From: Cryobacterium gelidum
GTDB taxonomy: Bacteria > Actinomycetota > Actinomycetes > Actinomycetales > Microbacteriaceae
Length of the DNA stretch: 64,000 nt
Assembly: GCF_004403985.1 (NCBI RefSeq)
Contig: NZ_SOHL01000015.1
Location: 1 to 64,000 of the forward strand
Direction of reading: 5' to 3'
Positions within the stretch are counted from its first letter, which is position 1; every line of letters begins with the position of its first letter. The notes beneath the pieces were generated by a model that worked only from the letters and a program-made list of their open reading frames with translations, ran no database searches and was not told where the DNA came from. A program made the position numbers and the translations under genes. This document shows, one piece after another, positions 6,183-49,645 of this stretch.

Positions 6183-6215
6183 CCCGATACGAACAACACC
6201 TGTCAGGCTGCGGAT

Positions 6216-31126: not shown

Positions 31127-31142
31127 GATTCTCTCCGCTCAA

Positions 31143-31293
31143 CTGATTTTTTTGCCTGGCTGGCAAGAGAATCGATAGAGAGCGGGAGTGCCGAAGTGCA
31201 CGGCTGGTCGGGGGAAATAAGGGAGCCTGCGACCGCGCCCGAGCAGGTGGGCACGTAGGCACGGAAGCGAACTACGATGACCGGCCAGACAGA
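31143..31293 (-). promoter_or_regulatory. ICE leader element, copy A
   Basis: About 150 bp that align with 40400-40557 (opposite strand) and 45850-46003. Shared blocks on this strand: AATCGATAG(C/A)GAGCGGGAG, ATAAGGGAGC, GCGACCGCG and CGGCC(A/G)GACAG. Closest to the gene is a small hairpin (TTGCC-AGCCA-GGCAA) followed by a run of A on the transcript strand. This copy is the most diverged of the three. Confidence 0.7.
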
Positions 31294-31349
31294 CAAAAAA
31301 ACGAAAAAGACGGCCGCGCAGCGGTCCGAGCACCCGCAGGGTCTCCCCG

Positions 31350-31574
31350 GTGCTTACGGGGTTGCGTCTGGTGTTAGCCGGTGTCGCCGAGGTGCGACCG
31401 CTGATTCACGAGGTTGAGCACGCCGAGGTTGACGAGCTCCCGCGCCGAGCGGTGCTCACCCTGCTGGTCGCTCTCTGCGGCGCGCTCCTGGTCGCTTCAC
31501 CGCCAGACGCGTGGCCCTGTTGCCGCGGGCCTCGTCGATCGGCCCGCGGGGTTAGTGGCCGATTTTGGCGATGA
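31350..31574 (+). CDS. Possible small ICE protein on the plus strand
   Basis: A 74-codon frame from GTG 31350 whose middle (GVAEVRPLIHEVEHAEVDELPRR then AVLTLLVALCGALL) resembles small helical proteins seen in actinobacterial conjugative elements. No clear ribosome binding site; the 3' end overlaps the convergent glutaredoxin gene and contains its terminator hairpin. It may be a chance frame. Confidence 0.25.
   Translation: MLTGLRLVLAGVAEVRPLIHEVEHAEVDELPRRAVLTLLVALCGALLVASPPDAWPCCRGPRRSARGVSGRFWR
31523..31549 (-). terminator. Hairpin after the glutaredoxin-like gene
   Basis: CCGCGGGCC (31523-31531) and GGCCCGCGG (31541-31549) pair perfectly over 9 bp with a 9-nt loop, immediately downstream of the TAA at 31552. 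There is no U-tract. Confidence 0.55.
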
Positions 31575-31794
31575 GGTCGGGGCGGAAGCCGGCCCAGTGG
31601 TTGTGGTCGTCGATGACGACGATGGGAGCGCTGCTGTATCCGAGTTCGTCTTGCACGTAGGTGAGGGCGGCGGGTGTTTCGGTGAGGTCGACGACGGTGT
31701 AGCTGATGCCCTGCTTGTCGAGGTTGAGTTTGGTCATCCTGCAGGGCTGGCAGTTCGGTTTCGTGTAGACAATGATGCCGACTGTTTCGTTCAT
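31552..31794 (-). CDS. Glutaredoxin-like protein (NrdH-type redoxin)
   Basis: 80 residues from ATG 31794, with AAAGGAGC upstream. The thioredoxin-fold start IVYTKPNCQPCRMTKLNL carries the CxxC site (CQPC), followed by the cis-Pro strand SSAPIVVIDD and the terminal WAGFRPDLI typical of NrdH redoxins. NrdH normally reduces class Ib ribonucleotide reductase; here it stands alone in the ICE without nrdEF. A degenerate trace of the ICE leader (TTATTTC core) lies upstream at about 31900-31925. It could support nucleotide supply during element replication or fold cysteine-containing transfer proteins; both ideas are inference. Confidence 0.85.
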   Translation of the reverse strand: MNETVGIIVYTKPNCQPCRMTKLNLDKQGISYTVVDLTETPAALTYVQDELGYSSAPIVVIDDHNHWAGFRPDLIAKIGH

Positions 31795-32050
31795 CGCGGG
31801 GCTCCTTTCACTCACACTGTCGGAGTGGTGCTGTTCGGTAGCGGAGGTTCGCTGTGCCCGGGAGGAAGCGACCACAAGTGCGGGACCGGATGGTGGGGCC
31901 AGTGGGTGAGGAAATAAGCGACCGGAGGGAACGCCGAGCCCAGTTGTTCCACCGGTCGGCACTTCGTGCGCACGTTGGTCAGCGCCCGCCCGGGCCAGCA
32001 GGCTCCTCGAACGAAGAGACACCGCCCCTGACGCGAGTAGAGCTGCGCGG

Positions 32051-33115
32051 TTAGCCAACGGTCATCGGATCAGCCGTGAACGCGACGTCGAGATGCAGGT
32101 GATTGCAGGTGTCGTCGAACGGGGTGAAGTGCAACAGCGCCAAGTTGATGCCGGCCTCCCGCCGGCAGTCTGCCTGCCCGATCCGTGCCCCGGGCGGCAT
32201 GATTGGGTCGAGGAGTCCGATTAGGCGGAGGGACTGGCCGTCGGCGCCGGTGAGGCTGCGGCCGCCGAGGGAATAGAAGTCGACGGCTCCGCCTCCGCCG
32301 TTGATCCAGTGTGAGGACTGGGTGCCGGCGCCGAGGAGTTGCCCGGTGCATTTGCGGTTGATGTCGCTGACGCCGACCTGGTGAAACTGGTTGACGGCCA
32401 GGACCATCACCTGCAGGATGCGGGTGTCGATCCCGCAGTCCGGGACAGTTTGCCCGGTGGCGATCCACCGGATCTCCTTCAGGTGGTCCGGGACGAGGCC
32501 GCGCAGCTGCCCGTTGTCGGCGGCGGTGACGAGCTGCTGCGCCAGCCCGACCGCATCCCCTCCACCGACACCACAGGCGCCGCCGGCACTGGCGGTGAGC
32601 GCGGTGACGACGTCGGTCGCCGGCGCGAAGAACGGTGCGTAGTGTTCCGGGTCGGCGTTGATTTGCACGGCGGATGCTGCCGCCGACGGCGTCATTGTCT
32701 CCCACCCCGATAGCGCCACTAGGCGTTGGAAGAACAGCCGTGCCGCGGTGGCGGGGTCCATCCGCTCCGCGAGGGATCCCCAGGTGGCCCGTTGTTGGAA
32801 CAGGCCGCGGCTGTCGGGCCCGGCGGTGTTGCCGTGGTCGAGGTTGACCAGGCTCGACTCCCCAATCGCCGTCATCACCCCGAGAGTTTGCGCCTGCGCA
32901 GTGAGGCCGAGCTGGGCGGCGGCGTTGATGATGTCGGCGGCGTTGGCGAGCTGGTCGCCGCTATACCCGACGACAGCCGCGTGCTCGGAGGCATCCGCTC
33001 TGTTGACGGCGGTCAGGCCGCAGGTGGTGCCGGTGCCGGAGGAGAGGGCGACGGTGCCGCCGACGGTCAGGAGCAGGCCGGTGAGGCTGGCGGCGAGGAG
33101 TTTGACCAGGCCCAT
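32051..33115 (-). CDS. Lytic transglycosylase-like cell-wall hydrolase of the ICE
   Basis: 354 residues. It has an N-terminal export signal (LLAASLTGLLLTVGGTVAL), then a transglycosylase-like domain (about 60-170) with the expected catalytic Glu in TAIGESSL and SRGLFQQRATWGS. A C-terminal domain (about 215-350) with HWINGGGGAVDFYS and a final HLHLDVAF looks like a D-Ala-type or M15/M23-like peptidase remnant. In conjugative systems such enzymes open peptidoglycan for the transfer channel (VirB1 role). It is last of the transfer operon: VirB6-, SCO6880-, VirB4-like, hydrolase. Confidence 0.75.
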   Translation of the reverse strand: MGLVKLLAASLTGLLLTVGGTVALSSGTGTTCGLTAVNRADASEHAAVVGYSGDQLANAADIINAAAQLGLTAQAQTLGVMTAIGESSLVNLDHGNTAGPDSRGLFQQRATWGSLAERMDPATAARLFFQRLVALSGWETMTPSAAASAVQINADPEHYAPFFAPATDVVTALTASAGGACGVGGGDAVGLAQQLVTAADNGQLRGLVPDHLKEIRWIATGQTVPDCGIDTRILQVMVLAVNQFHQVGVSDINRKCTGQLLGAGTQSSHWINGGGGAVDFYSLGGRSLTGADGQSLRLIGLLDPIMPPGARIGQADCRREAGINLALLHFTPFDDTCNHLHLDVAFTADPMTVG

Positions 33116-33119
33116 GATG

Positions 33120-34595
33120 TTAGAAGATGGTGCCGACGGATAGGCCCTCGTCGGTGTTGGTCAGCTGCCGCTCCCACTCGGAGCGGATGTGCTCCACGTG
33201 CGTTTCCGGGTGCGACCCGAACTTGAAGATGTAGTGCCCATCTGCCAGCGTCTCGATGGTGCGCGCCGTCTCCGGTGCGAAGCCGAACGTTTGCTGGCAC
33301 CAGAGGGCGTCTTCGGGGCGGGACTGCCGGTAGACGACCACGGTTTGTGCTTCCTGGATGATTGCCATGCCGGGTGAGTCCTTGGGGATGTCGGTGCCTT
33401 TGTGCATGACGAACACGTTCGAGATACCTAGGCCCCGGGAGAGTTTTTGGTTGGCTTTGATCAGCTGCGCCGACGGCCCGCCGATCATGTGCCAACCCTC
33501 TTCATAAACGACGGTCGTCGCGGAGGTGCGTTCGCTGCGCAGCCGGCCCAGCATCCACATGTTCCCAATCGCCATGATTACCGGTACCGCCGGGCCGTCA
33601 TCGGGCAGCTGGGAAATATCAAACGATGTCAGCTTGCCGCTCAGGTCCACCGCTGCGGACGTTTCGCCGTCGAGGAGGCCCGCGTATTCGTCGAGCAGCC
33701 CGTTCAACGTCCACTTCACGGATAGGCCGGCCTTGTGCAGGTCGTCGCGGGCGGTGACCGACAGGGTGCGGTAGTCGTCATCGTCGACGACCAGGCCAAG
33801 GTTCGGCAGCACGTCGGCGAGCACCGGCACCCGCCCGTGGGCCTGGCCGACGGTGCGGCGCAGCGCCGCACGGAGGGCCTCCTCTTCCCATTCATTGAGG
33901 GGCTGATCGCCGCGGGCGATGCGAGTGACGATGTTCAGCAGCCGTGTCTGTCCTTTGACGCCGGTGCCGCGGGCGATCATCGGATCGAGCAGGTTCAAGG
34001 TGGTGCCGGTGCCGTCCGTGGTGAACCGGATCGGTTCAAACCCGTAATGCCGCACCACGTTGGAGTACTCGCCCTCCCCGTTCTGATCCTTCTTGTCAAA
34101 CACCACCCCACGCCGCCCCTGCAGCAGGAGCGGGCGGACGACGTAGTTGCATTTAGTGTGCGAGCTTTTGCCCGCGCCGACGTCGCCCATCACGATCACG
34201 TTCGGACTCGACACCTCCCGCGGCTCAGAGTTGTAGGCCGTGACGGGGTCGTGGGAGATCGTCGTCCGCGACAACACGTCCCGCCCGTTCACGACACCGC
34301 GGGTGCCGGTCGGCGGCCCGATCAGTGCGGTGTTGAGGATCTCCGCTTGCCGCGTCGTCGTGGGTGCGCCAGCCAGCACCGGAGCGTAGAAGCCGCGACG
34401 CGCGGCCGCCGCTTGCGTGCGCAACGCCGTGCCCGGCAGCGCCCACGGCACAATCTCTGCCGCACCGTGGCTACCAGCCGTGTCGATCCCCCCGGCCTCG
34501 TCAGCGGGAATCTCAGCGGGCGGCGCAAAGCGGCGCAGCACCGGCAGCGCCCACAATCTCGAGCGGGATACGCTGGTGTCGTTGGGTGTGGTCAT
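33120..34595 (-). CDS. VirB4-like conjugation ATPase
   Basis: 491 residues from ATG 34595, which overlaps the SCO6880-family stop (ATGA). Walker A is VIVMGDVGAGKSS (about 138-150), then FDKKDQNGEGEYSNV, and Walker B TTVVYEEGWHMIGG (about 362-375), with the C-terminal lid region GFAPETARTIETLADG. This is the ATPase core of VirB4/TraC-type proteins that power type IV secretion channel assembly. The N-terminal VirB4 domain is not here; the preceding SCO6880-family protein probably supplies it, a split arrangement common in actinobacterial elements. It ends 5 bp before the transglycosylase gene. Confidence 0.85.
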   Translation of the reverse strand: MTTPNDTSVSRSRLWALPVLRRFAPPAEIPADEAGGIDTAGSHGAAEIVPWALPGTALRTQAAAARRGFYAPVLAGAPTTTRQAEILNTALIGPPTGTRGVVNGRDVLSRTTISHDPVTAYNSEPREVSSPNVIVMGDVGAGKSSHTKCNYVVRPLLLQGRRGVVFDKKDQNGEGEYSNVVRHYGFEPIRFTTDGTGTTLNLLDPMIARGTGVKGQTRLLNIVTRIARGDQPLNEWEEEALRAALRRTVGQAHGRVPVLADVLPNLGLVVDDDDYRTLSVTARDDLHKAGLSVKWTLNGLLDEYAGLLDGETSAAVDLSGKLTSFDISQLPDDGPAVPVIMAIGNMWMLGRLRSERTSATTVVYEEGWHMIGGPSAQLIKANQKLSRGLGISNVFVMHKGTDIPKDSPGMAIIQEAQTVVVYRQSRPEDALWCQQTFGFAPETARTIETLADGHYIFKFGSHPETHVEHIRSEWERQLTNTDEGLSVGTIF

Positions 34596-36262
34596 GTGAG
34601 GGCCTCCTTGTCGGATTTGCCGGCCAGGCGGCTGTAGACGCGGGCGGAGAACGACGGCGCCGACGCGACCAGGCCGCGTCCAATCGGCCACGTCGTGCCC
34701 GACGCGGCGGCCTGATACGAATCGAGCCAGTCCAGACTTTCAATGCCCAGGCCAGTGGAGCAGGTCTCCTCGAGCTGCCGCGACGCCCGCGCCAGCTCTT
34801 CCCGGGAGCGGACGGAGATGGTCACGAACCCGATCCAGACGGCGCCGTGGTGCTGCGACCCGGACACGAGATCTTGCCGGCGACGTCGGGCGGCCGTCAT
34901 GTGCACGTCGGTATCGTCCGTGTCCAGCTGCCCGGCCTCCCTGCGGGAGAGGGCTTCGGCGGTGTCACGGACCAGGTCTTGCCGAGCGGCGACTTTCGCC
35001 TCCGACGCCGGAACCAGGTGAAGGTGAAAGCTGACTGACCGGATGAACTGGATGTCCTTCCCGATCAGCAGATCCAACACCCACAGCTGCGTGCGGGCCG
35101 CGGTCGCGAGCGCTTCGGCGCGGATCGCGGCAGTGCGATGCCACCACCGCACCGGCAGGCCGGTGAGCGGGTCGATGCTGTCAACGATGTGCGCGGAGAA
35201 CTCCTCCTCGGCGGGTTCGCCGACCCGGTTCGGGTGCACGTCAGCGACGAAGTCGATCGGCCGCGACGGATTTTGCTGATGCCGCAGTACCGCCGCCACC
35301 TGCCGCGCCGTCAGCACCTCCACCCGGCCGATTTTTGACTCCGTCAAACCACGTTTGGTTGAGGCGATTTCCTGCCGCATCAACGCCCGCCATCCATCTC
35401 GGCCGTCGCCGTATTTGCGAGCGGCGTCGAAGAATACGGGGGTGAGGGGCCAGTTCACGGTGACGAAGTGGCGTTGCACCATCGCGTCATTCCCAGTCAG
35501 CCGCAGTACCTCCTCGTAGGAGGCGACCGCGTCGACCGGCGCCGCCGGGTCGAGGTTGTTGAGCACCCAGAATTCTTGCAACGCGGTATCGGCCGGCAGC
35601 ACCCGGGTGGTGATCTGCACGTCTTGGACGAGGACGGAGGGGACGGCGCGGGCGGCGAGGAACGCGCCCCAGCCGTGGGCGGCGCGCGCCATGACGCTGG
35701 CCGATTCGATCCCCCGGAGCTGACCACTGACGGTGAACGTTACAGACAGGTAGCTTTGCTCCCCGACCGGGGCGTGCCAGGCGATGCCGGGCTCGCCCCT
35801 GCCGTATTGCAGCCAGCCGAGCCCGTCCGACCCGTCCGGATTGGCCCGCATCGCCACCACCGCCTTGGCCGCCTCCACGGCAGTCTCCCGGGCTACCATG
35901 TCCTTGGTGGTGCGGGCGTCGGTGAGGGCTTGCTGGAGCTGGTCCCACGCGCCGACCTCGTAGGGCACGAACCGGGTCGTGCCGGCCCGGGTGCGCTTTT
36001 TCCACCGGGCTCGCTTGCGCCGCCGGTCGACGATTGACCCGCGGTGTGTTTTCGCTGTGACGAGAAACGTCACCCCGCAACTGACTGCTGCCGCTGCGAG
36101 GGCGGGCCAGCCGATCAGTGGGGTGAACACCATCCCGAACACGAGCGACCCCGCGAGGAAGATAATGCGGGCGCGGGAGTGCGTGCCGCCGAAGAAGGAG
36201 CGGTGCCCGCTCTCCCCGCCTAGATAGCGGATGACCGTACGATTGCGTAGGTCCGTCATCAT
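34592..36262 (-). CDS. SCO6880-family conjugation protein (VirB4 N-domain-like)
   Basis: 556 residues. Two hydrophobic helices near the N-terminus (FLAGSLVFGMVFTPLIGW, ALAAAAVSCGVTFLVTA) are followed by a basic linker and a long cytoplasmic part (about 90-556) with RFVPYEVGAWDQLQQAL, WHRTAAIRAEAL and RSVSFHLHLVPASEA, as in the SCO6880 family of actinobacterial ICEs. The family goes together with VirB4-like ATPases and is thought to act as its membrane-bound N-terminal half. It overlaps the VirB6-like gene upstream and the ATPase gene downstream by 4 bp each, so all three are cotranslated. Confidence 0.88.
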   Translation of the reverse strand: MMTDLRNRTVIRYLGGESGHRSFFGGTHSRARIIFLAGSLVFGMVFTPLIGWPALAAAAVSCGVTFLVTAKTHRGSIVDRRRKRARWKKRTRAGTTRFVPYEVGAWDQLQQALTDARTTKDMVARETAVEAAKAVVAMRANPDGSDGLGWLQYGRGEPGIAWHAPVGEQSYLSVTFTVSGQLRGIESASVMARAAHGWGAFLAARAVPSVLVQDVQITTRVLPADTALQEFWVLNNLDPAAPVDAVASYEEVLRLTGNDAMVQRHFVTVNWPLTPVFFDAARKYGDGRDGWRALMRQEIASTKRGLTESKIGRVEVLTARQVAAVLRHQQNPSRPIDFVADVHPNRVGEPAEEEFSAHIVDSIDPLTGLPVRWWHRTAAIRAEALATAARTQLWVLDLLIGKDIQFIRSVSFHLHLVPASEAKVAARQDLVRDTAEALSRREAGQLDTDDTDVHMTAARRRRQDLVSGSQHHGAVWIGFVTISVRSREELARASRQLEETCSTGLGIESLDWLDSYQAAASGTTWPIGRGLVASAPSFSARVYSRLAGKSDKEALT

Positions 36263-37731
36263 GGGTGATCTCCTCCCAGGGTTGGGGTGTCATCCATTGA
36301 CTCCGTCGCCTGCTCTCCGGCGGTCTGGACCATGTCCATGCCTTTCCCGACGGCCTCGATGCTCTTGTGCGCGGCGGCGATCCCCGCCGCCGCGATCAGC
36401 GTCGGGACGCCGACGACCGCGCCCGCGCCGGTCGCTGATTCCGCCGTCCCAGCGGCGGCGAGCCCGGTCTCAGCCGCGGCCGCGCCTGCGCCGGCTCCGG
36501 CAGCCGCACTGGCGCCCGCGGCTCCCGCGGTGGCGGTCGCTGCCCGGCTGGCACCGAGCGTCACGCCATCACCGGCTGCACCGGTGCCGGCTGGCGCAGC
36601 GGCGCGGTTGCCGATGACCTCCGACAGGCTCCCCGGAGCTGTCGAGGATTCCGAGACGCGCTCGGTCGTGGAATCCGTGGACTCCTTTGTCGTTGTCGAG
36701 GTGGCCCGTTCTGCGGTGGAGGGTTGGCCGTAGCGTTCGGTGGCTTCGGTCATGTTCTGGGCGCCGATGTGCTTCCCGACGTCCACGGACGGACCGGTGG
36801 TGCCGCCGAAAGCCATGGGAATGATCGGCGCGAACTTCATCAGTAGCAGCGGCGAGAGCGCGGCCATCAGCAGACCGATGATGGCCACCATCAGCGACAC
36901 CATCGATTGCAGACCGAAGTTGTTGCCAAACGCGCTGATCTGATTTGCCGTCATCGAAAAGGCCAGGCCCAGCAACAGGAACAGCAGCGGGTGAGCCGCG
37001 AGAATCCCAATCCAGAGCGCGGCGATCTTCAAGCCGAAGGAGCGCTTGTTCTTATCGATGATCCACACCAGCCCGAGCGGTAGCAGTACCCCGGTGAAGT
37101 AAAGCGTCACCAGCTGCACCAACAACATGAGCAGCACCAGGAAGAGTGCAAGGATCATGCAGATCATCAGGATGACGCCCATGACGATTCCGCCGGTGAT
37201 GCCGACTGGGTCGGCCTGCTCAATCATGGAGCTGAACTGCACGGTGACGGTCGTCGCCGTGCCAGTCAGGCCGGCGGCGACGAAGACGTCCGTCAGGGAG
37301 TGGAAGAAGTTGATCAGCATGATCCCGAACATTGGGCCGAACATGGCCCCGACTAGAAATGTTCCAAAGTACAGTCCGACAGACTCGACCAGGTCGCGGC
37401 CCGCTTGGGCGCCGCGCGCCGTTCGCACGGCCTGCGGGATCAGCAGCAGCACGGCGACGAAGATCGCCGTAGCAAAGCTAATCTTGTAGGCGCTGATGAA
37501 CCAGTCCGCCGTCAGATCCGGAAGCGTCGCACTGGTCAACGCCGGCATGATGTCCCGACTCATCCCCTCCGCCGTATCGCGGAGCATCTTGAAGGTATTT
37601 CCCCACGGGTCCGACCAATACGACACCACACCCGCTGCACCATTGATGGCATTACCGATGCCGCCCACGAGATCCCCGAAAAATCCTGGGTCATCGCCGG
37701 GCTTGGTCGCCATGCCCAGCATTGTCAGCAC
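36259..37731 (-). CDS. VirB6/TrbL-like polytopic membrane protein
   Basis: 490 residues from GTG 37731. About six to seven membrane helices between residues 70 and 310 (ATAIFVAVLLLIPQAV, FLVGAMFGPMFGIML, MGVILMICMILALFLVLLM, PLLFLLLGLAFSM) form the channel part. The C-terminal 170 residues are a low-complexity tail of A, G, S and T. This is the layout of the TrbL/VirB6 component of actinobacterial type IV secretion systems. The first seven bases overlap the preceding gene; the stop overlaps the SCO6880-family start. Confidence 0.8.
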   Translation of the reverse strand: MLTMLGMATKPGDDPGFFGDLVGGIGNAINGAAGVVSYWSDPWGNTFKMLRDTAEGMSRDIMPALTSATLPDLTADWFISAYKISFATAIFVAVLLLIPQAVRTARGAQAGRDLVESVGLYFGTFLVGAMFGPMFGIMLINFFHSLTDVFVAAGLTGTATTVTVQFSSMIEQADPVGITGGIVMGVILMICMILALFLVLLMLLVQLVTLYFTGVLLPLGLVWIIDKNKRSFGLKIAALWIGILAAHPLLFLLLGLAFSMTANQISAFGNNFGLQSMVSLMVAIIGLLMAALSPLLLMKFAPIIPMAFGGTTGPSVDVGKHIGAQNMTEATERYGQPSTAERATSTTTKESTDSTTERVSESSTAPGSLSEVIGNRAAAPAGTGAAGDGVTLGASRAATATAGAAGASAAAGAGAGAAAAETGLAAAGTAESATGAGAVVGVPTLIAAAGIAAAHKSIEAVGKGMDMVQTAGEQATESMDDTPTLGGDHP

Positions 37732-38420
37732 CCGCTCGTAAAGGGTGCACCGATGGAGAACAAGTCCTCTGTCGTGCGAGTCCCTTCAGACTTCGCAAAT
37801 TTCCACTCGCCGTTTTCCCAGCGGACGGTCACGGTAATTGATCCTTTCAACGTCGGGCTCATGGCCCCCTGTTGGACGAGCCCCGTGCCGATCGTGGCGA
37901 CGACTTCATCGTTCGACGCCGATTCGATGTGCCACACGCCGGGAATGGTCGACAGATAGTATTCCGTCGTGTCCGGCACGAGCCCGCCCGAGACGTTGGG
38001 ATTGTTTGCAAAAAACTTTCGCAAATCCTTGGTCGGAATATCTGCAGCGAGAGCGCTAGTCGCGACAGTGTCTGCATCGTCCGACGACGGGTAGGGGTAC
38101 TGGTGTAGCCACCGTACGAAGGCCGCGGCGTACTCCACTGCCCCTGTGCTTGTGTGCGGTGCAGCTTGTTGCGCAGCGAGGACCATGGCTGCGTCTCGCG
38201 TTTCACCGCCGAGGCATCCGGTCGGCTCCGTGTCGACCGGTGCGGTGCTCGGCGACGGCGTGCTGCTCGCTCTCGGCGTTGTCGGCTCGGGTGTGGGTGT
38301 GACAGTGCCAGCTTGGCTGCCGAAGTAGACGGCGCCGGCGATGATGAGTGCGCCGATGAGGATGGCGGTGCTAACGATCCAGGGCCAGGTGCGGCGGGTG
38401 GGTGGTGCGGTCGCGTGCAC
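37725..38420 (-). CDS. VirB8/TcpC-like single-pass transfer protein
   Basis: 231 residues from GTG 38420 with AGGAGCG upstream. One N-terminal helix (WIVSTAILIGALIIAGAVYFG), a P/T/S-rich linker (about 35-65), then an extracytoplasmic domain (about 70-231) with AFVRWLHQYPYPS and a final strand-rich part that fits the NTF2-like fold of VirB8/TcpC proteins. The longer open frame to 38621 is an antisense-free shadow of the upstream gene. It probably links the inner membrane complex to the pilus base. Function is by position and topology. Confidence 0.65.
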   Translation of the reverse strand: MHATAPPTRRTWPWIVSTAILIGALIIAGAVYFGSQAGTVTPTPEPTTPRASSTPSPSTAPVDTEPTGCLGGETRDAAMVLAAQQAAPHTSTGAVEYAAAFVRWLHQYPYPSSDDADTVATSALAADIPTKDLRKFFANNPNVSGGLVPDTTEYYLSTIPGVWHIESASNDEVVATIGTGLVQQGAMSPTLKGSITVTVRWENGEWKFAKSEGTRTTEDLFSIGAPFTSGC

Positions 38421-38428
38421 GAGCGCTC

Positions 38429-38758
38429 CTATCCGAAGACGGCGAGGATGGCGCCGACGATCACGGCGAGGGCGGCGAGCACCCCGAGGGAGATACCAGC
38501 CCACATGGCTTGGTTGCGGGCGGTTTTGTATTCGTTGGGGTTGCCACCGCTGGAGGCGCTGGCCATTTTGATGATGCCGATGATTAGGAACACGATCGCC
38601 AGGATGATGCCGATCCCCCATACCCCGGCGAGGAGCTTCTGCCAGAGCAGGGTGAATTCCGCCCCGAAGATGGTGAAGTCCGGCAGGATGCCGTCGAGCG
38701 GATTGTCGATCGTTCGCACCACGGTGCCCACGAGGGTCTGCAGGGATTCTGTGAGCAT
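38429..38758 (-). CDS. VirB2/TrbC-like small membrane protein
   Basis: 109 residues from ATG 38758. Two hydrophobic helices (GVWGIGIILAIVFLIIGIIKM and MWAGISLGVLAALAVIVGAILAVFG) are separated by a short polar loop (SSGGNPNEYKTARNQ), the hairpin topology of pilin-like VirB2/TrbC subunits. It precedes the VirB8-like gene by 8 bp. The N-terminal 45 residues contain no typical signal peptide cleavage site. Confidence 0.65.
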   Translation of the reverse strand: MLTESLQTLVGTVVRTIDNPLDGILPDFTIFGAEFTLLWQKLLAGVWGIGIILAIVFLIIGIIKMASASSGGNPNEYKTARNQAMWAGISLGVLAALAVIVGAILAVFG

Positions 38759-38777
38759 GACGGTTCGCCTTTCGCTG

Positions 38778-39962
38778 CTATCGGACGGTGGCTTGCAGGG
38801 TACGCACGACGCCCGCCGCCGCTGCGGTGAACGCCCGTCGCGTCTGCGGGGCGAGATGCCCGAGGGTGATCTGCCCGCGCTCGGCAATGTGCGGGTCATA
38901 CGGGATAGTGAACACCTGCTCGACACCCGCGTCAGCGATAATCTGATCGACCCGGTCGACGACCTGCCGGTTCTCCGGCCGCCCATCCGTCAGCCGCAGG
39001 ATCGTCGCGTGCTCGGCCAAGCTCGCCGCCTTCCCGCCGGCCGACCGCAGTACATCGAGCAGCGCGACCGCCTCCAACACCGCATCCCCGGCGTTGAACA
39101 CCGGAATCACCAACGCGTCGGCGGTATCGACGGCGCCCTGGAACGCTGAGGAGGAGGGCTGGTTGCCGCTGTCCATAATGCGGATGCCGAAGTACTGATC
39201 GACGACCGCCGCGACCGCAGTCACATCGTCATGGGTCAGGCGCGGCCGGCGACGCACGGTGCCGATCACGGACGCGAACGAGGTTTGAGGCGCGGTGTAG
39301 CCGGCGAGCTGCCCGGCGCTGGTGATGGTGTCGACGTCGCGGACGAGTTCTCCCATGCCGCGGGCTGGGTTTCCCTCCGCCCGGAACGACAATGCGCCGG
39401 GGTCGTCGGATACCTCGAGGATGCACACCGATCCGCCGCGGGCGGCGGCAAGGACTCCACCGGCGATGATCGCCGACGGCGTCTTCCCGACGCCGCCCTT
39501 CTGGTTGGCGACCAACACGCTCACCGCGCGAGTCCATGTTGCCTGCCGGATCGTTTCCTCATCCCGCCGCAAGGCTTCCGTCTGTTCGCGCTCGGCCAGC
39601 TCTGCCGGTCCGGGCGTCATCGGCAGCCCGAGGCGGGAGAGCACACCGCGCAGGCCGCGCTGCGCACCCTGCGCCTGCGGCGCGGTGGAGAGCAGTCCGA
39701 GGTCGTGATCGGAACCGCCAAACAGATCGGCCAGAGCCGGCTCAGACGGGATTCCTACCGGCCGCTGCGGCATCGCGCTGGCCGGTGCACCACTCTCGTC
39801 GACAGCTTGGCGTTCCGGAAGCGGGACAACCGGACGTTCGGGAGTGGGGGCATCCGCTTCGATGTAGCCCTGGGCACGTGACGCACCGCGAAACACGGTA
39901 CTCGCGGGTGGGTCAGTGTGCTGGTTCGTGGTCTGTGATGTTGCCTGATTCTGACTGGACAC
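38778..39962 (-). CDS. MinD/ParA-like ATPase of the ICE
   Basis: 394 residues from GTG 39962, which has GAGGGAG 8 bp upstream. The N-terminal 120 residues are polar and disordered (many Q, T, P); the ATPase domain has the deviant Walker A VLVANQKGGVGKTPSA (about 145-160), ILEVSDDPGALS and the switch region GIRIMDSGNQPSSS. The position at the head of the pilus operon is common in actinobacterial ICEs, where these proteins may position the transfer apparatus or the element DNA. No ParB partner gene or parS array is visible, so partition alone is less likely. Confidence 0.8.
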   Translation of the reverse strand: MSSQNQATSQTTNQHTDPPASTVFRGASRAQGYIEADAPTPERPVVPLPERQAVDESGAPASAMPQRPVGIPSEPALADLFGGSDHDLGLLSTAPQAQGAQRGLRGVLSRLGLPMTPGPAELAEREQTEALRRDEETIRQATWTRAVSVLVANQKGGVGKTPSAIIAGGVLAAARGGSVCILEVSDDPGALSFRAEGNPARGMGELVRDVDTITSAGQLAGYTAPQTSFASVIGTVRRRPRLTHDDVTAVAAVVDQYFGIRIMDSGNQPSSSAFQGAVDTADALVIPVFNAGDAVLEAVALLDVLRSAGGKAASLAEHATILRLTDGRPENRQVVDRVDQIIADAGVEQVFTIPYDPHIAERGQITLGHLAPQTRRAFTAAAAGVVRTLQATVR

Positions 39963-40004
39963 AAGCAAATCTCCCTCTCTAGGACTCCATACGGTGCTCG
40001 ACAA

Positions 40005-40399
40005 TCACCACAACGACACAAGACACGGAATCGGTCAGCAGGTTGGCCGAGCGTCGGCGGATTGTGGCAACAGCCGGGCATATTCCTGCCAGCCATGCTG
40101 TCGTATCCGTTCGAGCGGACCGGGTGTGCACCGTCACGATTCCCTTTCTGTGCGGCGTCGTTGCCGTCTAAGTCGAGAGTAATGCTCACCTCCGACATTG
40201 AATGCGACACACCGCCAAGAAGACACGAAATGCCCTCAAAAAGTCCCGGCCACAACAGCGGTCCCGTGACCGAGCAGTCGCCCACGCCTTGGCAAGTGCT
40301 CGCCAGTTCGCAAGCGCAAGGACCTGTGCGGAAGCGGCTACGCCGCTGCGAACCTCAAATAATGAGCCGCGTTCGCGACCTGTTTTCACGGGCTTGTTT
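40005..40399. other. Divergent intergenic region between parA-like and dprA-like genes
   Basis: No gene is supported. It should contain the leftward promoter of the transfer operon. The rightward unit begins with leader copy B, described separately. Confidence 0.4.
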
Positions 40400-40557
40400 G
40401 ACCTTTCCGGCCGGTCATCGTAGCTCGCTTCGCGCCTGCGTTCCCAGATTCTCAGACGCGGTCGCACGCTCCCTTATTTCGCCTGAGATTCTGGGCACTA
40501 CAGCTCTCCCGCTCGCTATCGATTTCTCTCGCCGGAAGGCAAACAAAATATTCGGTC
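40400..40557 (+). promoter_or_regulatory. ICE leader element, copy B
   Basis: About 155 bp directly upstream of the dprA-like gene. It matches copy C closely, including CGTAGCTCGCT, TTCTCAGACGCGGTCGC, GCTCCCTTAT, CTCCCGCTCGCTATCGATT and CTCTCGCCGGAAGGCAAA. The last block forms a small GCC-GGAA-GGC hairpin ending about 25 bp before the start codon. Confidence 0.75.
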
Positions 40558-40577
40558 CAGGAGAGGGAGCCACCATC

Positions 40578-41513
40578 ATGACCATCGCTGCGGTTATCGA
40601 CACCATCAGCACCGACACCACCGTAAGCAGTCCCATCAGCCACGACACCATCGCCCGCACCGCCTGGGCCACCATCGCCGAACCGGGCGACCCCCACGTT
40701 TGCGCACTCATCGCAGGGTATGGGGCCGAAGCAGCCCTGAACGCCCTCCTCAGCCTCGACCCCGATACAGCCAGTGGCAGAGACGGGACCATCGCGCAGC
40801 TGCGATCGACCAGCCTGCCTCGGTACTCGGTCAACCGGGTCGTCGACGCGATCCGTCTCACCGTCGCAGGCGGGTACGAGCTGCTCACGCCATCACATTC
40901 GAACTGGCCGGCATCCGTTGCCGACCTCGGAGAGGCAGGACCGTTTGCTCTCTGGGTGCGCGGGGACGCTTTGCTTCTGAGCGCGCCGAGCGTGGCGTTG
41001 ACGGGCACGCAGTTCGCGACCCCGTACGGCAGGCACCTTTGCGTGGACCTGGCCTCCGGTCTAATCGAGCGCGGCTGGGCGATTGCCTCCGGCGCCGCTC
41101 GCGGCATCGACACCGCCGCCCTCGCCACCGGTCGGGCATTCGCCGGCCGCAACGTGGTTGTTCTCCCCACGGGCATGGACGACACTTGCCCTGCGGAAAA
41201 CGCGGAGCTGGTCGACGCAGTCGCGACGCGCGGTGTCATCGTGAGTGAAATCCCACCGGGACGCACGCCCTCGGCGTGGCAGTTCCAAGGCGGCAACCGA
41301 CTCCTCGCTGCGCTCGCAACCAAGACCGTCATCGTCGAAGCGGAATACGAGTCCGGGGACCTGCACACCGCGGTGACCGCCATGGAACTGGGCCGGCCGT
41401 GCGGTGCCGTGCGCGGGTTGGCTGCGACCGTGGCCAATGCGGGATGCGACCGGCTCATCCGTCAGTACGGCGCCCAACTTGTCGCCACCATTGACGACGC
41501 CGACCGACTCTGA
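40578..41513 (+). CDS. DprA/Smf-like DNA-processing protein of the ICE
   Basis: 311 residues from ATG 40578, preceded by AGGAGAGGGAGC. The Rossmann-like DprA core is complete: VALTGTQFATPYG, GWAIASGAARGIDTAAL, VVLPTGMDDTCPAENAEL, GVIVSEIPPGRTP, VIVEAEYESGDLHTA and GCDRLIRQYGAQLV. DprA binds single-stranded DNA and loads RecA; ICE-borne homologues may protect or process the incoming transferred strand. It is the only clear gene on this strand within the transfer region and has its own copy of the ICE leader, so it is probably expressed with the SSB-like gene. Its 3' end faces the coupling-protein gene across a shared hairpin. Confidence 0.9.
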   Translation: MTIAAVIDTISTDTTVSSPISHDTIARTAWATIAEPGDPHVCALIAGYGAEAALNALLSLDPDTASGRDGTIAQLRSTSLPRYSVNRVVDAIRLTVAGGYELLTPSHSNWPASVADLGEAGPFALWVRGDALLLSAPSVALTGTQFATPYGRHLCVDLASGLIERGWAIASGAARGIDTAALATGRAFAGRNVVVLPTGMDDTCPAENAELVDAVATRGVIVSEIPPGRTPSAWQFQGGNRLLAALATKTVIVEAEYESGDLHTAVTAMELGRPCGAVRGLAATVANAGCDRLIRQYGAQLVATIDDADRL

Positions 41514-41522
41514 CCCTGGCGA

Positions 41523-41553
41523 GAGCGCCGCCCGCATCGGTCAGGCGGCGCTC
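41523..41553. terminator. Bidirectional hairpin between dprA-like and coupling-protein genes
   Basis: GAGCGCCGCC (41523-41532) and GGCGGCGCTC (41544-41553) pair perfectly over 10 bp. The right arm includes the stop codon of the leftward gene. It suits termination of both convergent transcripts. Confidence 0.55.
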
Positions 41554-43460
41554 CCGGATTCATCCGTCTCGACGACGTCGAGCCGCACGACCTCCGCGTC
41601 ACGACCACGCTCGACGTCAGCCGGCGCCGGCGCCGGCACCGGTGTAAGCGGCGCGGATGGTGGTGTCTGCAGTTGCCGGTTGGGCAGTGCTCGGAACGGA
41701 GCGATCGCGCCGCCCTGCACGATCCAGAACGCTCCGTCCGCCGCTTCCCGCACATCTTGCGGTGGGATGACGTAGGTGTGTTGGGCGCGGGCGCTGCCGA
41801 GTTCCTCGCCGGTGGCGCGGCCGGCGGATTCCATCCGCATCACCGTCCCGGCATACTTCACCACATCTTCCGGGTCTTTGGATCGGCCAAAGATCAGCGC
41901 AGCGCCACTCGTGAGTGCACGGCGACGGCGGACCTCATCGTTAGATAGGCCCGCCGGGCTCTGCGTCGCGAGGACTAAGCCGACGCCGGCGCTGCGCGCC
42001 GTCTCAAACAGGCTCCCCGCAGTATCACCCGGGTCCTGCGACCCTGTCACCAGCTGGGGGAATTCGTCAACGATGACGACCACCGGGGACTTGTCGCGAC
42101 GCTCCAACCGGGTGGCGAGAAAGTTCCGCAAGTCCAGCAGGAGCAGATCACCCAGCCGCGCCTGAGCATCGTCGACCGGCGACAGCGGAATGACCGTCAC
42201 GTCAGCTTTCGGCGCGTTGTAGGACCAGCCGTCCTGGCCGATCCAGCGTTGCATCGGCCGCAGCGCCACCAGTAGGCTCTGCAACGCCCGTGCTCCCGCG
42301 GTCGACCCGTCTCGCTCCACGCGCTTGTTGATCAGCGGCAGGTCGTCGGTGTCGTCGACGAACCGGGCTGGGTAGGTCAACCGCTCGCGCAGGTCATCGA
42401 TGCTGCTCAGCGGAGACCTGCCTTGCACCATTTGCAGCACCCCACGAATCTCATCGAGATAATGCTGGTTCGCGCCGTCAGGTACGGGCATCAGCCGCAT
42501 CAGCTTCGCCGTGATCTGGTCGCCGGTGCCGTTAAAAAGGTTCCACGTACCGCCGGTTGTCGCGGTGCGACCATAGGTCTGCGCCACGGCGACCAGGTTC
42601 TCGGCGTCAGCCGGGTCGCCTTTCGCGTCTATGACGAACACGGGCCACCCGTATTCCAATGCACACAGTACGAGTCCGTTGATCAGGACGGTTTTGCCGC
42701 TGCCGGACTCCGCGATGATCAGTGCCCGCACCGACGATGCCGTCGGCGGCAGTACCAGGTATTTTCCGGTTGCATCGACCCAGTCGCGCACGCGGCGCAT
42801 GTCATAGAAGCGGTCAGCGAGGGTTCGAATCGTCACCCGGCTCGTCACCCCGAATGCCTGCCGCTGATCTCCCACGGCCAGCGGCACGGTGACCGCTTGG
42901 CGGGTGGTGCCGACGATGCGGCCTGTCTCGGCCTCGAGGCGCACGCCGATGCGGCGGGCCACGCTGCTGTCGGCGGCACGCTTGCGTGCGGTCTCAATCT
43001 TCTCCTGCCGCACCACGTTCGATACTCGCCGGGACCGAACCTGCTCGGCGATTTTCCGCCGCCGCAACGACCACGCGGCCGGCAGCAACAGCACCCCGGC
43101 AAAGAAATTCGCCACCACCCACGGACCAAACATCGACCAGAGCTGCGCCCACCACTCAGCGTCGTCAAAGAACTCGGTCGCGGCCCCCGAGCGGATCCAG
43201 TCCGCCAGCAGGATTGCCTCCCAAGTGAGGAGCGCGGCTACGAGGAGGATGCCGACCGTATTAACCGTCCACTGCCACCGCCACACCACCCAGAACCGGG
43301 TCTTCGTCGCGATAACGTCGCCGGCAAGCCGGCTCACCACGACCGGCACGACCAGCGGCAACGCAATCAAGACCATGACGACCGCGAACGCGGCGCCGAG
43401 CAGCCGCGCGATCGTGTCGCTGGTGGCGTCCGTCTCTACCGGAACGGCCGTCTCGCTCAT
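41541..43460 (-). CDS. VirD4/TraG-type coupling ATPase
   Basis: 639 residues from ATG 43460. Three N-terminal membrane helices (about 20-140) are followed by an FtsK/TraG-type ATPase: Walker A LIIAESGSGKTVLING (about 235-250), FVIDAKGDP, Walker B SPVVVIVDEFPQLV (about 440-453) and LVLATQSPAG. The protein should recruit the DNA-relaxase complex to the secretion channel. The start overlaps the stop of the replication-relaxation gene (ATGA), so substrate-processing and coupling proteins are cotranslated. Confidence 0.88.
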   Translation of the reverse strand: MSETAVPVETDATSDTIARLLGAAFAVVMVLIALPLVVPVVVSRLAGDVIATKTRFWVVWRWQWTVNTVGILLVAALLTWEAILLADWIRSGAATEFFDDAEWWAQLWSMFGPWVVANFFAGVLLLPAAWSLRRRKIAEQVRSRRVSNVVRQEKIETARKRAADSSVARRIGVRLEAETGRIVGTTRQAVTVPLAVGDQRQAFGVTSRVTIRTLADRFYDMRRVRDWVDATGKYLVLPPTASSVRALIIAESGSGKTVLINGLVLCALEYGWPVFVIDAKGDPADAENLVAVAQTYGRTATTGGTWNLFNGTGDQITAKLMRLMPVPDGANQHYLDEIRGVLQMVQGRSPLSSIDDLRERLTYPARFVDDTDDLPLINKRVERDGSTAGARALQSLLVALRPMQRWIGQDGWSYNAPKADVTVIPLSPVDDAQARLGDLLLLDLRNFLATRLERRDKSPVVVIVDEFPQLVTGSQDPGDTAGSLFETARSAGVGLVLATQSPAGLSNDEVRRRRALTSGAALIFGRSKDPEDVVKYAGTVMRMESAGRATGEELGSARAQHTYVIPPQDVREAADGAFWIVQGGAIAPFRALPNRQLQTPPSAPLTPVPAPAPADVERGRDAEVVRLDVVETDESGSAA

Positions 43461-44194
43461 GCGCGGACCTGCGTCGACTCGCCCCACCCGCTGCTGCTCT
43501 CGAGCTCCACCACGTGGGCGGCTCGTCCGTGTGCGGTCGCGTAGGCGCCGGCGCCCAGCTCGGCGCCGGTCCAGTACCCGCGTGCGTCGAGGGAGTGTTG
43601 GGAAACGAAACGGGGTCGGTCGGTGCGGACCAGGTGCTTGTCCGCCTCCCGTGTTACCGCCCGATCAGCGTCCGCCGTGCAGAAATACACCACCCGATCA
43701 ATCCCCTCATGCGCCAAGCGATACGCGTGGCTCTGACAAATCGACTGATACCGCTGCCACGTCTTCGGCGTCAACTCCACCTCCACCAACTCGACAACCC
43801 CGTCACGCTCGGCCACCCCATCAGCCTGATGCTCGCGCACGCTGTTCGGTTTGCGGTCCCGCCGCCACGTGAACCCCTGCGCCAGATAGCGCGCCGACAC
43901 CGTCGCAACCGCTACCTCATGCCGCGTCGTCTGCCGAAACAGATTCGGCGCCGGCTTCCCAATCGCCAGATACGTGGCCCACACTATCGACCCGTCCCGA
44001 TACGCAACCCGGCCCCGGCCCAGCAATCCAGTCCCGATCATCCGCGCAGCCCACTGCTGCGCCCGGCGCAACGACACCGGCTCACCAACACCAGACAGGG
44101 CGCCCAACGCCCACCGCACGGCGTCCATATCCGCCAACCGAACAACGTCCAACCATGCCAGAAGTGCCTCGTCGCGCTCCGTCACCTGCACCAT
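43457..44194 (-). CDS. Replication-relaxation family protein
   Basis: 245 residues from ATG 44194. It begins TERDEALLAWLDVVRLADMDAV, the winged-helix start of the replication-relaxation family, then has a restriction-like core with HQADGVAERDGVVELVEVELTPK (acidic residues followed by E-x-E/K) and RVVYFCTADADRAV. The family is common in actinobacterial plasmids and ICEs and is thought to start plasmid replication or transfer. It is the gene nearest to the large inverted-repeat region at 44511-44682, on which it could act. The ORF extends upstream to 44275 without a better start. Confidence 0.8.
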   Translation of the reverse strand: MVQVTERDEALLAWLDVVRLADMDAVRWALGALSGVGEPVSLRRAQQWAARMIGTGLLGRGRVAYRDGSIVWATYLAIGKPAPNLFRQTTRHEVAVATVSARYLAQGFTWRRDRKPNSVREHQADGVAERDGVVELVEVELTPKTWQRYQSICQSHAYRLAHEGIDRVVYFCTADADRAVTREADKHLVRTDRPRFVSQHSLDARGYWTGAELGAGAYATAHGRAAHVVELESSSGWGESTQVRA

Positions 44195-44383
44195 CACCCA
44201 GCTCCAAACTGACAACGTTTCAGCTTTCCACCACGATTCTGCACCCAGCCACCGACACAGCCCCGCATGCCACACCGCACATCGTCCACTTCAACTCATC
44301 GACCTCACCGCTTCTGCTCGTCGTTTTTCTTATCCGATTGCTTCCTACTCTCTGCCGTCAGCTCCCACATTTTCTGCCGGCTT

Positions 44384-44553
44384 TACCTAGCTTTTCTCGT
44401 CACTTTTTTCACTTCTTCTCTGTCTTCTCTTCTTGTTCTCCCTATTTTTTTCTTTTCAGTTTTTTCTTTTTTGTTTTTGTACTTCTGTTTTTTTCTTCTA
44501 CCTTTTTCTTCTCTTTCCCTGTCCCACCACCACCCCTTTACTTCCCAACCTCC
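44384..44553. repeat. Strand-biased polypyrimidine tract
   Basis: About 170 bp in which the plus strand is almost only C and T (runs such as TTTTTTTCTTTTCAGTTTTTT and CTTCTCTTCTTG). It lies just left of, and merges into, the nested inverted repeat. Such tracts can unwind easily or form triplex DNA. No protein reading is credible here on either strand. Confidence 0.85.
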
Positions 44554-44682
44554 TACACACTGAGGAACGATGGGTGTGAGAGGTTGGGAAGCGAGCGCAG
44601 CGAGGGGGCGGCGGTGGGACAGGGAAAGAGACCCCCTACCCATTCGTTTACCTATTCGCTGCCAGTGAATAGGTGGACGAAT
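44511..44682. other. Nested inverted repeats, candidate oriT or single-strand origin
   Basis: Three nested stems: CTCTTTCCCTGTCCCACC (44511-44528) with 44613-44630, 18 of 18 paired; CTTCCCAACCTC (44541-44552) with 44580-44591, 12 of 12; CACAC (44556-44560) with GTGTG (44574-44578). A separate repeat, ATTCGTTTACCTATTC (44642-44657) with 44667-44682, pairs 14 of 16. It stands upstream of the replication-relaxation and coupling-protein genes, where an origin of transfer is usual. Assignment is by structure and position. Confidence 0.55.
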
Positions 44683-44974
44683 ACCCGCGCAGGCTTGTGG
44701 CGCTCTTCGTGCGTCAAATTCGTGACGGACGACGTGGTGCCTGCGACCGATCTTTGGCCCCTCTGCTGCGCATCTAGCAGTCGCCCGCACTGGACCTGCT
44801 CCGCCGGGCGAAGCCGAAATGGGGGCCCGGATATTGATGGCGTCCTGTGACGCTGGACCCGCGGAAGCGTCGACGCGAGCGGCCAAATCTTGTCGGCTCT
44901 ATGTCGTTTCAGCCGTCGAGGCATGAACAACTCGATGTGCGATCACGGGCCGTTCCGTCACCGGAATCAGCTCG

Positions 44975-45358
44975 TTACGACAAGCGCCGGAATCGTTCCA
45001 CGCTGTCGAACCAGCGGACGACGCTGTTGGCGTTGTGGGCTTGCATGAGGGCATCTTCGACGATGCCGGCGAATTGGGCGGCATCGCGAAGGCCGAGTTC
45101 AGCCCGAGCGACTCCGGGCGCGCAGCCGGCGCCGCAGCCGTCTTCGCCGTTGCACTCGACGCCGTCGACGACGGTGCTGTGCCAGTTGGCGAGCTGGTCG
45201 TACACCTGGCCGAGGGAGCGCTGGGTGGCGGTCAGACACCCGAGCAGCAGGTACGAGTCGTAGGGCCGTTCGATCGCACGAGTCGCGTGCGCCAGGCTGC
45301 GTGCGATGTCGGCCAGCTCGTTCGCCCGGCTGATCAATTCGCTGTCGTGGTCGTTCAT
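44975..45358 (-). CDS. Hypothetical ICE protein, helical
   Basis: 127 residues from ATG 45358, with GGAGCACC upstream. The N-terminal half is a helical bundle (LISRANELADIARSLAHATRA, GCLTATQRSLGQVYDQLANW), the middle has CNGEDGCGAGC, a cysteine cluster that could bind metal, and the C-terminal part is again helical. Not recognised. It follows the SSB-like gene by 60 bp in the same direction and precedes the candidate transfer origin. Confidence 0.55.
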   Translation of the reverse strand: MNDHDSELISRANELADIARSLAHATRAIERPYDSYLLLGCLTATQRSLGQVYDQLANWHSTVVDGVECNGEDGCGAGCAPGVARAELGLRDAAQFAGIVEDALMQAHNANSVVRWFDSVERFRRLS

Positions 45359-45418
45359 GGTGGTGCTCCTTTCATGAGGTATTCAGGGTGGGCCGCGCGT
45401 GCGGCCCACCCTGAATAG

Positions 45419-45781
45419 CTATTCGGTGTCAGGCTTGGAGTTGCGGCGAACGGTGGCGACGGCGCGGTTGAGGTCGGGTCCGACGTTGTCGGCGTCGATG
45501 ACGCGGCCGTATTGGCGTGTCTGCTCGTCGCCCCAGCTGTCAGTGTGTTCGCGGCCGACGACGATGACGGGGTCGCCCTTATGCAAGGTGGCGGCGACGT
45601 TTTGGCCGAGCTCGAACTTAGCTTCCACGAAATGCGTGGTTGCGGCGTCGTGGGCGAGCCATTTGCCGCCGCGGTACTCGCCTGTGTTCTCGATGACTCG
45701 CAGCTTGGTGATCTGAATGCTGCCGGCTGTGACGACCTCGGGGTCCAGAGCCAGGTTGCCGATGATGGTGCGTGTGGACAT
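45419..45781 (-). CDS. Single-stranded DNA-binding protein-like (OB fold)
   Basis: 120 residues from ATG 45781 with AAGGAGAAG upstream; the longer frame to 45853 lacks such a site. TRTIIGNLALDPEV at the start, ATTHFVEAKFELGQNVAATLHKG and DPVIVVGREHTD follow the OB-fold strands of SSB proteins. It lacks the acidic C-terminal tip of cellular SSB. Element-borne SSBs protect transferred or replicating single strands. Leader copy C lies upstream (45850-46003). Confidence 0.8.
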   Translation of the reverse strand: MSTRTIIGNLALDPEVVTAGSIQITKLRVIENTGEYRGGKWLAHDAATTHFVEAKFELGQNVAATLHKGDPVIVVGREHTDSWGDEQTRQYGRVIDADNVGPDLNRAVATVRRNSKPDTE

Positions 45782-45849
45782 GAGTGCTTCTCCTTCGATG
45801 GGTGGTGCGTTGAATTGCGGTGGGGAGTCGTTGGCTTTGGGTTCTTCGA

Positions 45850-46003
45850 CCAACTATTTTTTGTGCCGTCCGGCGAGAAGAATCGATAGCGAGCGGGAGC
45901 GCTGGGAGTGCCCCGAATTTCAGGCGAGATAAGGGAGCCAGCGACCGCGTCTGAGAATCTGGGAACGGGAGGCGCGTAGCGAGCTACGGTGATCGGCCGG
46001 ACA
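45850..46003 (-). promoter_or_regulatory. ICE leader element, copy C
   Basis: About 155 bp, upstream of the SSB-like gene with a 70-bp spacer. Contains AATCGATAGCGAGCGGGAGC, GATAAGGGAGCCAGCGACCG, GTCTGAGAATCTGGGAACG and the small palindrome CGTAGCGAGCTACG. Compared with copy B it is clearly homologous along its whole length. Confidence 0.75.
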
Positions 46004-46087
46004 GGTCACAAATTGCGTTTCACGCGGTGGGGATGCGCGCCGATTGCGGCCGCGATCAAGGGGCCTTTGCCCGACGTTGCTGGCAAG

Positions 46088-47020: not shown

Positions 47021-47124
47021 GATTACGTCCCTTCGGTGACACGAGACACTCATTGCTTCGTGTTGCGATCACAATAAAACGCTTTTCGCTGTTTGACAAG
47101 GACCAATAGCTGTACGGTGTCGGC

Positions 47125-47724: not shown

Positions 47725-47805
47725 ACCGCTGAGCCCGGGCCGAATAACTATCGTCCGCGTGTGAGCGGTCGAGGTATCGCCCTTGAGTTGCACTCTGTGC
47801 GCGTG

Positions 47806-49605: not shown

Positions 49606-49645
49606 CTCCCAGTGTTCATATGGGATTCAGGGGTTCAAATGGCTG

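Follow-up and report, generated by a model that had tools for sequence, protein, structure and literature searches.

Three homologous stretches of non-coding DNA stand in front of genes of an integrative and conjugative element (ICE) in Cryobacterium gelidum, and they raise the question of whether such leaders act as RNA, as conventional promoters or as DNA that folds during transfer. The window analyzed was the 64,000-nucleotide stretch at positions 1 to 64,000 of contig NZ_SOHL01000015.1 (assembly GCF_004403985.1). In the original prediction, the leaders were placed before a hypothetical, a DprA-like and an SSB-like gene, always in the same orientation to the gene that follows. All three copies were recovered at these places by blastn, a motif scan and a covariance model, and the constant orientation was borne out by the open reading frames (ORFs) and Pfam matches. 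Each copy is probably an Frpo-like single-strand promoter that is unrelated to Frpo in sequence. The computed basis of this reading comprises the family, its hairpin, the covariation, a strand asymmetry, the position of a -10-like hexamer, the strand concordance with identified relaxases and the set of genes behind the leaders. The copies and their genes are listed below.

31134..31300, minus strand: leader copy 1, before the gene for a 220-aa hypothetical protein (covariance model, 166.5 bits; blastn, 79% identity to copy 2 over 146 bases)
40394..40560, plus strand: leader copy 2, before dprA, in the orientation opposite to copies 1 and 3 (covariance model, 165.1 bits; hairpin fold)
45845..46012, minus strand: leader copy 3, before ssb (covariance model, 147.6 bits; blastn, 87% identity to copy 2 over 161 bases)
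30464..31126, minus strand: gene for the 220-aa hypothetical protein behind copy 1 (ORF)
40578..41513, plus strand: DprA-like gene behind copy 2 (PF02481, E 5.3e-48; TIGR00732, E 1.7e-45, below its cut-off)
45419..45781, minus strand: SSB-like gene behind copy 3 (PF00436, E 2.5e-8; 120 aa counted from ATG)
31836..32000, minus strand: possible decayed copy before a glutaredoxin-like gene at 31552-31794 (11.5 bits)

Each of two core motifs, with up to three mismatches allowed, has exactly three matches, compared with expected numbers of 0.06 and 0.01. No further copy was found in the same genome by blastn with copy 2 as the query (E ≤ 0.001). The 220-aa protein matches no Pfam family and no NCBIfam family. 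The weak trace that had been noted before the glutaredoxin-like gene reached only 11.5 bits in a model search of 801 bases with the filters off (E 0.0066) and is at most a decayed copy; a fourth copy at this place is not established.

The leader family and its hairpin

The family to which the three copies belong is ~167 nt long. The element starts with a T-tract and ends with an A-tract, which is followed by the ribosome site and the start codon. The two ends pair, and one long imperfect hairpin is common to all copies. The two small hairpins of the original prediction do exist, not as separate structures but as parts of this one hairpin, which extends across nearly the whole element. In a comparison of 30 non-redundant copies, 88.0% of the cells pair, and pairing falls to 38-44% when the partners are slid by 1-3 columns. 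Covariation, on which the original prediction had been made to depend together with conserved copies in related elements and positions outside coding regions, is present. Changes on both sides were found for 24 of the 48 pairs versus 16.8 in shuffles, none of 500 shuffles reached 24, and the covariation score was 0.250 versus 0.097 in the shuffles. The hairpin is under selection. RNAalifold by itself returned 11 pairs, probably because the 3′ arm was misaligned by MAFFT.

Conserved copies were found by blastn in 36 of 57 Cryobacterium genomes, with up to 13 matches per genome; four of the 36 (G006, G013, G014 and G053) were matched by pieces of 30-35 nt only. On one contig (G025:C2), seven copies lie on one strand within 11 kb. 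A covariance model was built from the 30 non-redundant Cryobacterium copies and applied to two wider samples. Matches were obtained in 68 of 398 genomes and 29 of 85 genera of Microbacteriaceae, and in 8 of 396 genomes of an order-level sample, six of which belong to the same family while the other two are matched partially. Among the matching plasmid records are those of Clavibacter, Curtobacterium, Mycetocola, Herbiconiux, Arthrobacter, Leifsonia and Dietzia; in many of the records the match is confined to the apex part. No annotated feature is present under the best match in 32 of the 36 matched plasmid records, and the remaining four have a hypothetical protein there (the gene table is incomplete). 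No match was found in phage records with copy 2 as the query.

The set from other genera consisted of 36 stretches from 31 of the 61 matched genomes outside the genus, chosen by hand with arrays in mind. Rows shorter than 130-140 nt were dropped, and copies of >90% identity, or >95% for the tree, were merged. Of 89 rows, three with <36 bits were reverse-strand ghosts; these were removed from the gene tally, the tree and the loose hexamer search described below and were kept in the model-fitted strand count and the fixed-position hexamer count.

Other structures were observed near or beside the family. A small hairpin of variable stem sequence, GGAGCCGC-loop-GCGGC and then RCTG or RCAG, occurs no more than 80 nt before the element in 78 of 163 copies, compared with 6 of 163 for a control stretch, and may be a terminator, an insulator or a protein site. 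The start of this hairpin is 26-33 nt before the element in 60 of the 78, and the rule fits none of the three window copies. Among the matches listed, there are longer leaders in which the apex motif GCTCCCTTATTTCGC is common and the outer stem is different and longer (L078 at the pCM2 end, L079 at ~6000-6200, L124 at ~12180-12440, L138 at ~12000 and L146 at ~11850). The gene that follows is ArdC-like in Mycetocola and encodes DUF3846 in Curtobacterium; by eye, antisense TANNNT is present in one of three. In genus g56 (G232, G279, G319, G355 and G384), weaker model matches of ~54-82 bits are scattered over the chromosomes and may represent numerous small ICEs or something else. Pairs of copies on opposite strands, ~140-180 nt apart, occur at G084:C1 461515-462039, G319:C1 510362-510846 and G279:C1 2059228-2059714.

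The probable folding strand and a -10-like hexamer

A G·U pair on one strand of a hairpin is an A·C mismatch on the complementary strand, and the reverse. A·C and G·U were counted on the sense strand at pairs defined by Watson-Crick cells alone, after gaps in some rows had been shifted by script. The A·C to G·U ratio was 67:26 for the 30 Cryobacterium copies and 151:78 for 62 non-redundant copies from other genera (151:89 by a second script). Model-fitted alignments provided ratios of 167:78 for 62 copies and 51:25 for 26 Cryobacterium rows, two of which were taken for reverse-strand ghosts. By parsimony on a tree of 117 copies, A·C was gained 130 times and G·U 64 times (two-sided p 2.5e-6).

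Two controls were counted by the Watson-Crick method. For RNase P RNA of 29 Microbacteriaceae, the A·C to G·U ratio was 36:137 (29 of 30 loci, with one at a contig edge left out). For Frpo of F-like plasmids, ratios of 52:24 and 35:8 were obtained with 14 and 12 copies, respectively; 16 of 17 matches were used, of which 14 remained after merging, and the 12-copy count was unmerged. By this sequence comparison, the leader behaves like Frpo and unlike an RNA. Because the A·C excess is as in Frpo and opposite to RNase P, and because the hexamer described next is antisense, the results suggest that the folding strand is the DNA strand opposite the gene rather than the mRNA. The A·C/G·U comparison offers a simple comparative way to tell on which strand a DNA hairpin functions.

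A -10-like hexamer, TANNNT, is located on the antisense strand at one place in the 5′ arm. Its positions in the three window copies are as follows.

31273..31278, plus strand (opposite to the gene): TACGAT of copy 1, at a position conserved across the family
40417..40422, minus strand (opposite to the gene): TACGAT of copy 2
45985..45990, plus strand (opposite to the gene): TACGGT of copy 3

The antisense hexamer is present in all 62 copies from other genera, and a strict six-column scan recovers it in 59 of them. Nine variants occur among them: TACGAT in 35, TAGGTT in 10, TACGGT in 5 and six that are rarer. It is also present in 24 of 26 Cryobacterium rows, where the two misses look like reverse-strand ghosts, and in 164 of 166 unique copies by a looser search. 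On the sense strand of the opposing 3′ arm, TANNNT appears in 0 of 62 and 2 of 26, respectively. No sense-direction -10 is conserved, and the best fixed sense-strand column for TANNNT reaches 27%. The hexamer points away from the gene in duplex DNA and toward the gene in the folded antisense strand. Its pairing is imperfect, with a bulged T and, in one class, an A·A mismatch (sense strand), and an unpaired stretch follows. The imperfect pairing and the unpaired stretch would ease opening.

In the proposed mechanism, the element would enter the recipient as single-stranded DNA, and the strand complementary to the coding strand would fold into a hairpin of ~150 nt. Folding would put the hexamer (mostly TACGAT) in a duplex aimed at the gene; a bulge or mismatch would lie within the hexamer or next to it, and ~5-7 nt just downstream would be unpaired, like a pre-melted bubble. 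The host RNA polymerase would start near the hairpin base and copy the folded strand. If transcription began close to where the outer stem ends on its inner side, the leader would be ~38 nt long for copy 1 and ~47 nt for copy 2. The product would be a short-leader mRNA for SSB, DprA, ParB, an ArdC-like protein and similar early genes. Second-strand synthesis would then remove the hairpin, and expression would stop because the duplex has no conserved sense-direction -10. In this scheme we infer the identity of the transferred strand, the recognition by polymerase, the start site, the timing and the shut-off.

Relaxase strand, downstream genes and alternative explanations

Leader copies occur together with a MOBF or MOBP relaxase on 34 contigs. 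On 32 of these, all of the copies are on the relaxase strand, and the listed copies on the 34 contigs number 106 on the relaxase strand versus 2 on the opposite strand. The copies per contig were entered by hand, and one genome with the relaxase ~2 Mb away (G369) was left out. On a Mycetocola plasmid, mobC and the relaxase gene follow the array on the same strand at a distance of ~7-13 kb. Relaxase genes are reported to be typically the last to be transferred (PMC11541004), and copies on the relaxase strand would therefore have the transferred strand as the template. The occurrence of copies on both strands, as had been described in the original prediction, holds for this ICE and for 25 of 69 listed multi-copy contigs (Cryobacterium blastn rows of <100 nt were left out of this tally) but for only 2 of the 28 multi-copy contigs with a MOBF or MOBP relaxase.

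The ORF downstream of each of 168 copies was picked by a permissive rule and then clustered, and a stricter rerun was also made; some of the ORFs are probably in the wrong frame. The families found are DUF3846-type (29 copies, with the label taken from annotated relatives), ParB-like (28-29), DprA (19-20), DUF3560 (17), glutaredoxin (13), a 220-aa family (9), ArdC-like (8), an 85-aa family (7) and SSB (7, with 5 in the largest strict cluster). With one representative searched for each family, DUF3560, ParB_N, DprA, glutaredoxin, ArdcN and SSB were supported by Pfam, and the 220-aa and 85-aa families had no Pfam match. The leader often ends 4-20 nt ahead of a start codon. The leading regions of F and of a relative encode a DNA methylase, antirestriction, DUF3560 (in the relative), SSB, ParB and PsiB. 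The genes behind the leaders (ParB, DUF3560, SSB and ArdC-like) resemble this kind and are probably those that a conjugative element needs first in a new cell.

Of the three readings offered in the original prediction, the single-strand promoter is best supported, by the strand test, the hexamer position and the relaxase strand. It is unlikely, in our judgment, that the leader is instead a single-strand initiation site (sso/ssi-like), where RNA polymerase or primase would use the folded transferred strand to prime second-strand synthesis, with gene expression as a side effect at most. Both functions have been reported for Frpo (PMC7736820), longer leaders with another outer stem also carry the apex motif, as expected of a protein-binding loop, and copies on both strands fit priming better than they fit gene expression from a single strand. 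However, seven copies within 11 kb of one contig, each before an ORF, are more than priming needs, and the orientation to the gene is constant by the permissive ORF rule. A conventional double-stranded promoter or operator of an establishment regulon, which a protein of the element would repress in donors as for EGeRS2 of p576, is quite improbable, although it would tolerate copies on both strands and although a shared upstream sequence before establishment-type genes is the arrangement reported for p576 (PMC8708921). The sense -10 is not conserved (≤27% at any column), and a repressor site has no need of 48 paired, covarying positions over 167 nt; the conserved hairpin is left unexplained by the element-wide promoter or operator that had been considered originally.

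A leader that is folded in the mRNA, as a riboswitch, antiterminator or attenuator, would be consistent with the folding of the sense strand, which occurs too, with the short distance from the end of the element to the ribosome site and with copies on both strands. It is nevertheless very improbable, as the sense-strand excess of A·C over G·U is opposite to that of RNase P from the same bacterial family and an Rfam scan of the window at the gathering score identified the tRNA family only and none for the leader. This reading was rejected on the strand test and the RNase P control, which contradict the riboswitch or antitermination RNA proposed at the outset. An antisense promoter that fires away from the gene in double-stranded DNA, giving a divergent or antisense RNA, is scarcely credible: TANNNT does read upstream in duplex DNA, but the hairpin, the constant relation to the downstream gene and the strand bias with identified relaxases would all be left unexplained.

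A number of observations weigh against the single-strand promoter. An earlier and cruder strand count was even (22:22 cells; 11:6 contexts for A·C). The A·C excess could come in part from mutation of an exposed strand rather than from selection, which would still imply that this strand is single-stranded. Copy 2 folds modestly better than shuffles (z of -2.0 as RNA, -1.4 and -1.8 as DNA), and the single-sequence folds of antisense DNA are not uniform, with several copies preferring other structures. A loose GG(C/A)ACG located ~16-17 nt upstream of TANNNT is a weak candidate for a -35. No convincing sequence similarity to Frpo was found, the best blastn match being 20 nt (E 0.003) among the best ten rows for 173 queries versus 16 Frpo copies. 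When the covariance model was applied to seven F-like stretches, the matches did not exceed 16.6 bits (E 0.039), and four of the six weak matches are inside Frpo copies.

Strand and distance provide further counterevidence. The distance from the arrays to the relaxase ranges from a few kb to tens of kb. Copies on both strands were found on 10 of 36 listed multi-copy contigs of Cryobacterium and 15 of 33 of other genera. Of the multi-copy contigs without an identified MOBF or MOBP relaxase, 23 of 41 are mixed-strand (10 from Cryobacterium, this ICE included, and 13 from other genera); the same transferred strand cannot serve every copy. Several of the mixed-strand contigs from other genera are chromosomal, with the copies far apart; mixed-strand contigs may belong to elements of another type or hold copies with a different mode of action. 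In all 8 loci tallied for the ICE family of the window, this one included, dprA and ssb have their leader copies in opposite orientations. Under the model, expression of the inverted dprA copy from the transferred strand would not be expected, and this copy is evidence against a uniform role of the leaders.

Known systems and layout of the ICE

Single-strand promoters of the Frpo/ssi type were reportedly described by Masai and Arai in 1997 and by Nasim in 2004. The leader resembles Frpo/ssi of F, ColIb-P9 and their relatives in being a non-coding hairpin before leading-region genes, including ssb, ParB and DUF3560, and in having several copies per element; the A·C-over-G·U signature is shared with Frpo. 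It differs in its length (~167 nt versus ~460 nt for the Frpo stretch compared), in its TANNNT -10, in the presence of seven copies on one plasmid contig and in its occurrence in Microbacteriaceae on MOBP and MOBF plasmids and on ICEs. For F, Frpo has been reported together with its role in vivo (Couturier et al. 2023, PMC9849209). A BLAST search for Frpo homologues, with five sequences as the reference, has covered 21,907 elements, and further candidates were proposed (Samuel et al. 2024, PMC11541004). These candidates, Frpo′ and Frpo*, are likewise predicted single-stranded DNA promoters in leading regions, but they are reported to have been found by BLAST to five known Frpo/ssi or by a consensus search in four islands, and the term Actinomycet- is absent from the main text of that paper (PMC11541004).

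In Gram-positive conjugative plasmids, too, an establishment regulon is reported to be marked by upstream sequences that recur, EGeRS1 and EGeRS2 (PMC8708921). EGeRS1 of the pLS20-family Bacillus plasmids is 420-750 bp in length, and its authors argue against a single-stranded DNA promoter on the ground that transfer delivers the non-template strand; EGeRS2 is described as a strong double-strand promoter under repression (PMC8708921). A conserved sense double-strand promoter of the EGeRS2 type was not found in the leader, where no sense TANNNT column exceeds 27%.

In the literature consulted, single-strand promoters have been shown for enterobacterial plasmids only, and EGeRS1 of pLS20, a Gram-positive candidate, has been argued not to be one. 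No description of an actinobacterial single-strand promoter was found in the literature searched, which covered titles and the starts of abstracts, with most subscription papers and preprints outside its scope. We are inclined to think that a sequence-unrelated and probably independently evolved class of single-strand promoter drives the establishment regulon of actinobacterial plasmids and ICEs, often with one promoter per gene or operon. If this is true, single-strand transcription on entry would be a general solution in conjugation, beyond the enterobacterial plasmids, and the A·C/G·U strand test could find such promoters from sequence alone. The leader would also serve as a marker of leading regions and of genes with a likely anti-defence role, such as those of the 220-aa and 85-aa families.

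The type IV secretion system genes of the ICE, a coupling-protein-like ATPase and a MobC/replication-relaxation-like protein are encoded on the minus strand, like copies 1 and 3. The remaining features of the ICE are listed below.

43457..44275, minus strand: MobC/replication-relaxation-like protein, candidate relaxase of the ICE (NF041423, E 1.4e-8, 34 bits, far below the cut-off of 200)
44510..44631, no strand: inverted repeat of 27 nt, 93% complementary, 68 nt apart, candidate origin of transfer (oriT) before the MobC-like gene
48475..49605, plus strand: tyrosine integrase next to tRNA-Ser at 49645-49736 (PF00589, E 5.5e-22)

The replication-relaxation domain PF13814 has no match in this genome. 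With an oriT at 44510-44631, our guess is that ssb would enter first together with copy 3. No repeat of a tRNA-Ser attachment site was found within the window, and the ends of the ICE are therefore undefined. Tandem homologous stretches (249 nt at 71% and 66 nt at 74%) are located at 47108-48118 in two adjacent ORFs that show weak helix-turn-helix similarity. Beside the ssb leader, at 46140-46230, palindromes rich in G and C are densely packed and are a possible origin or binding site.

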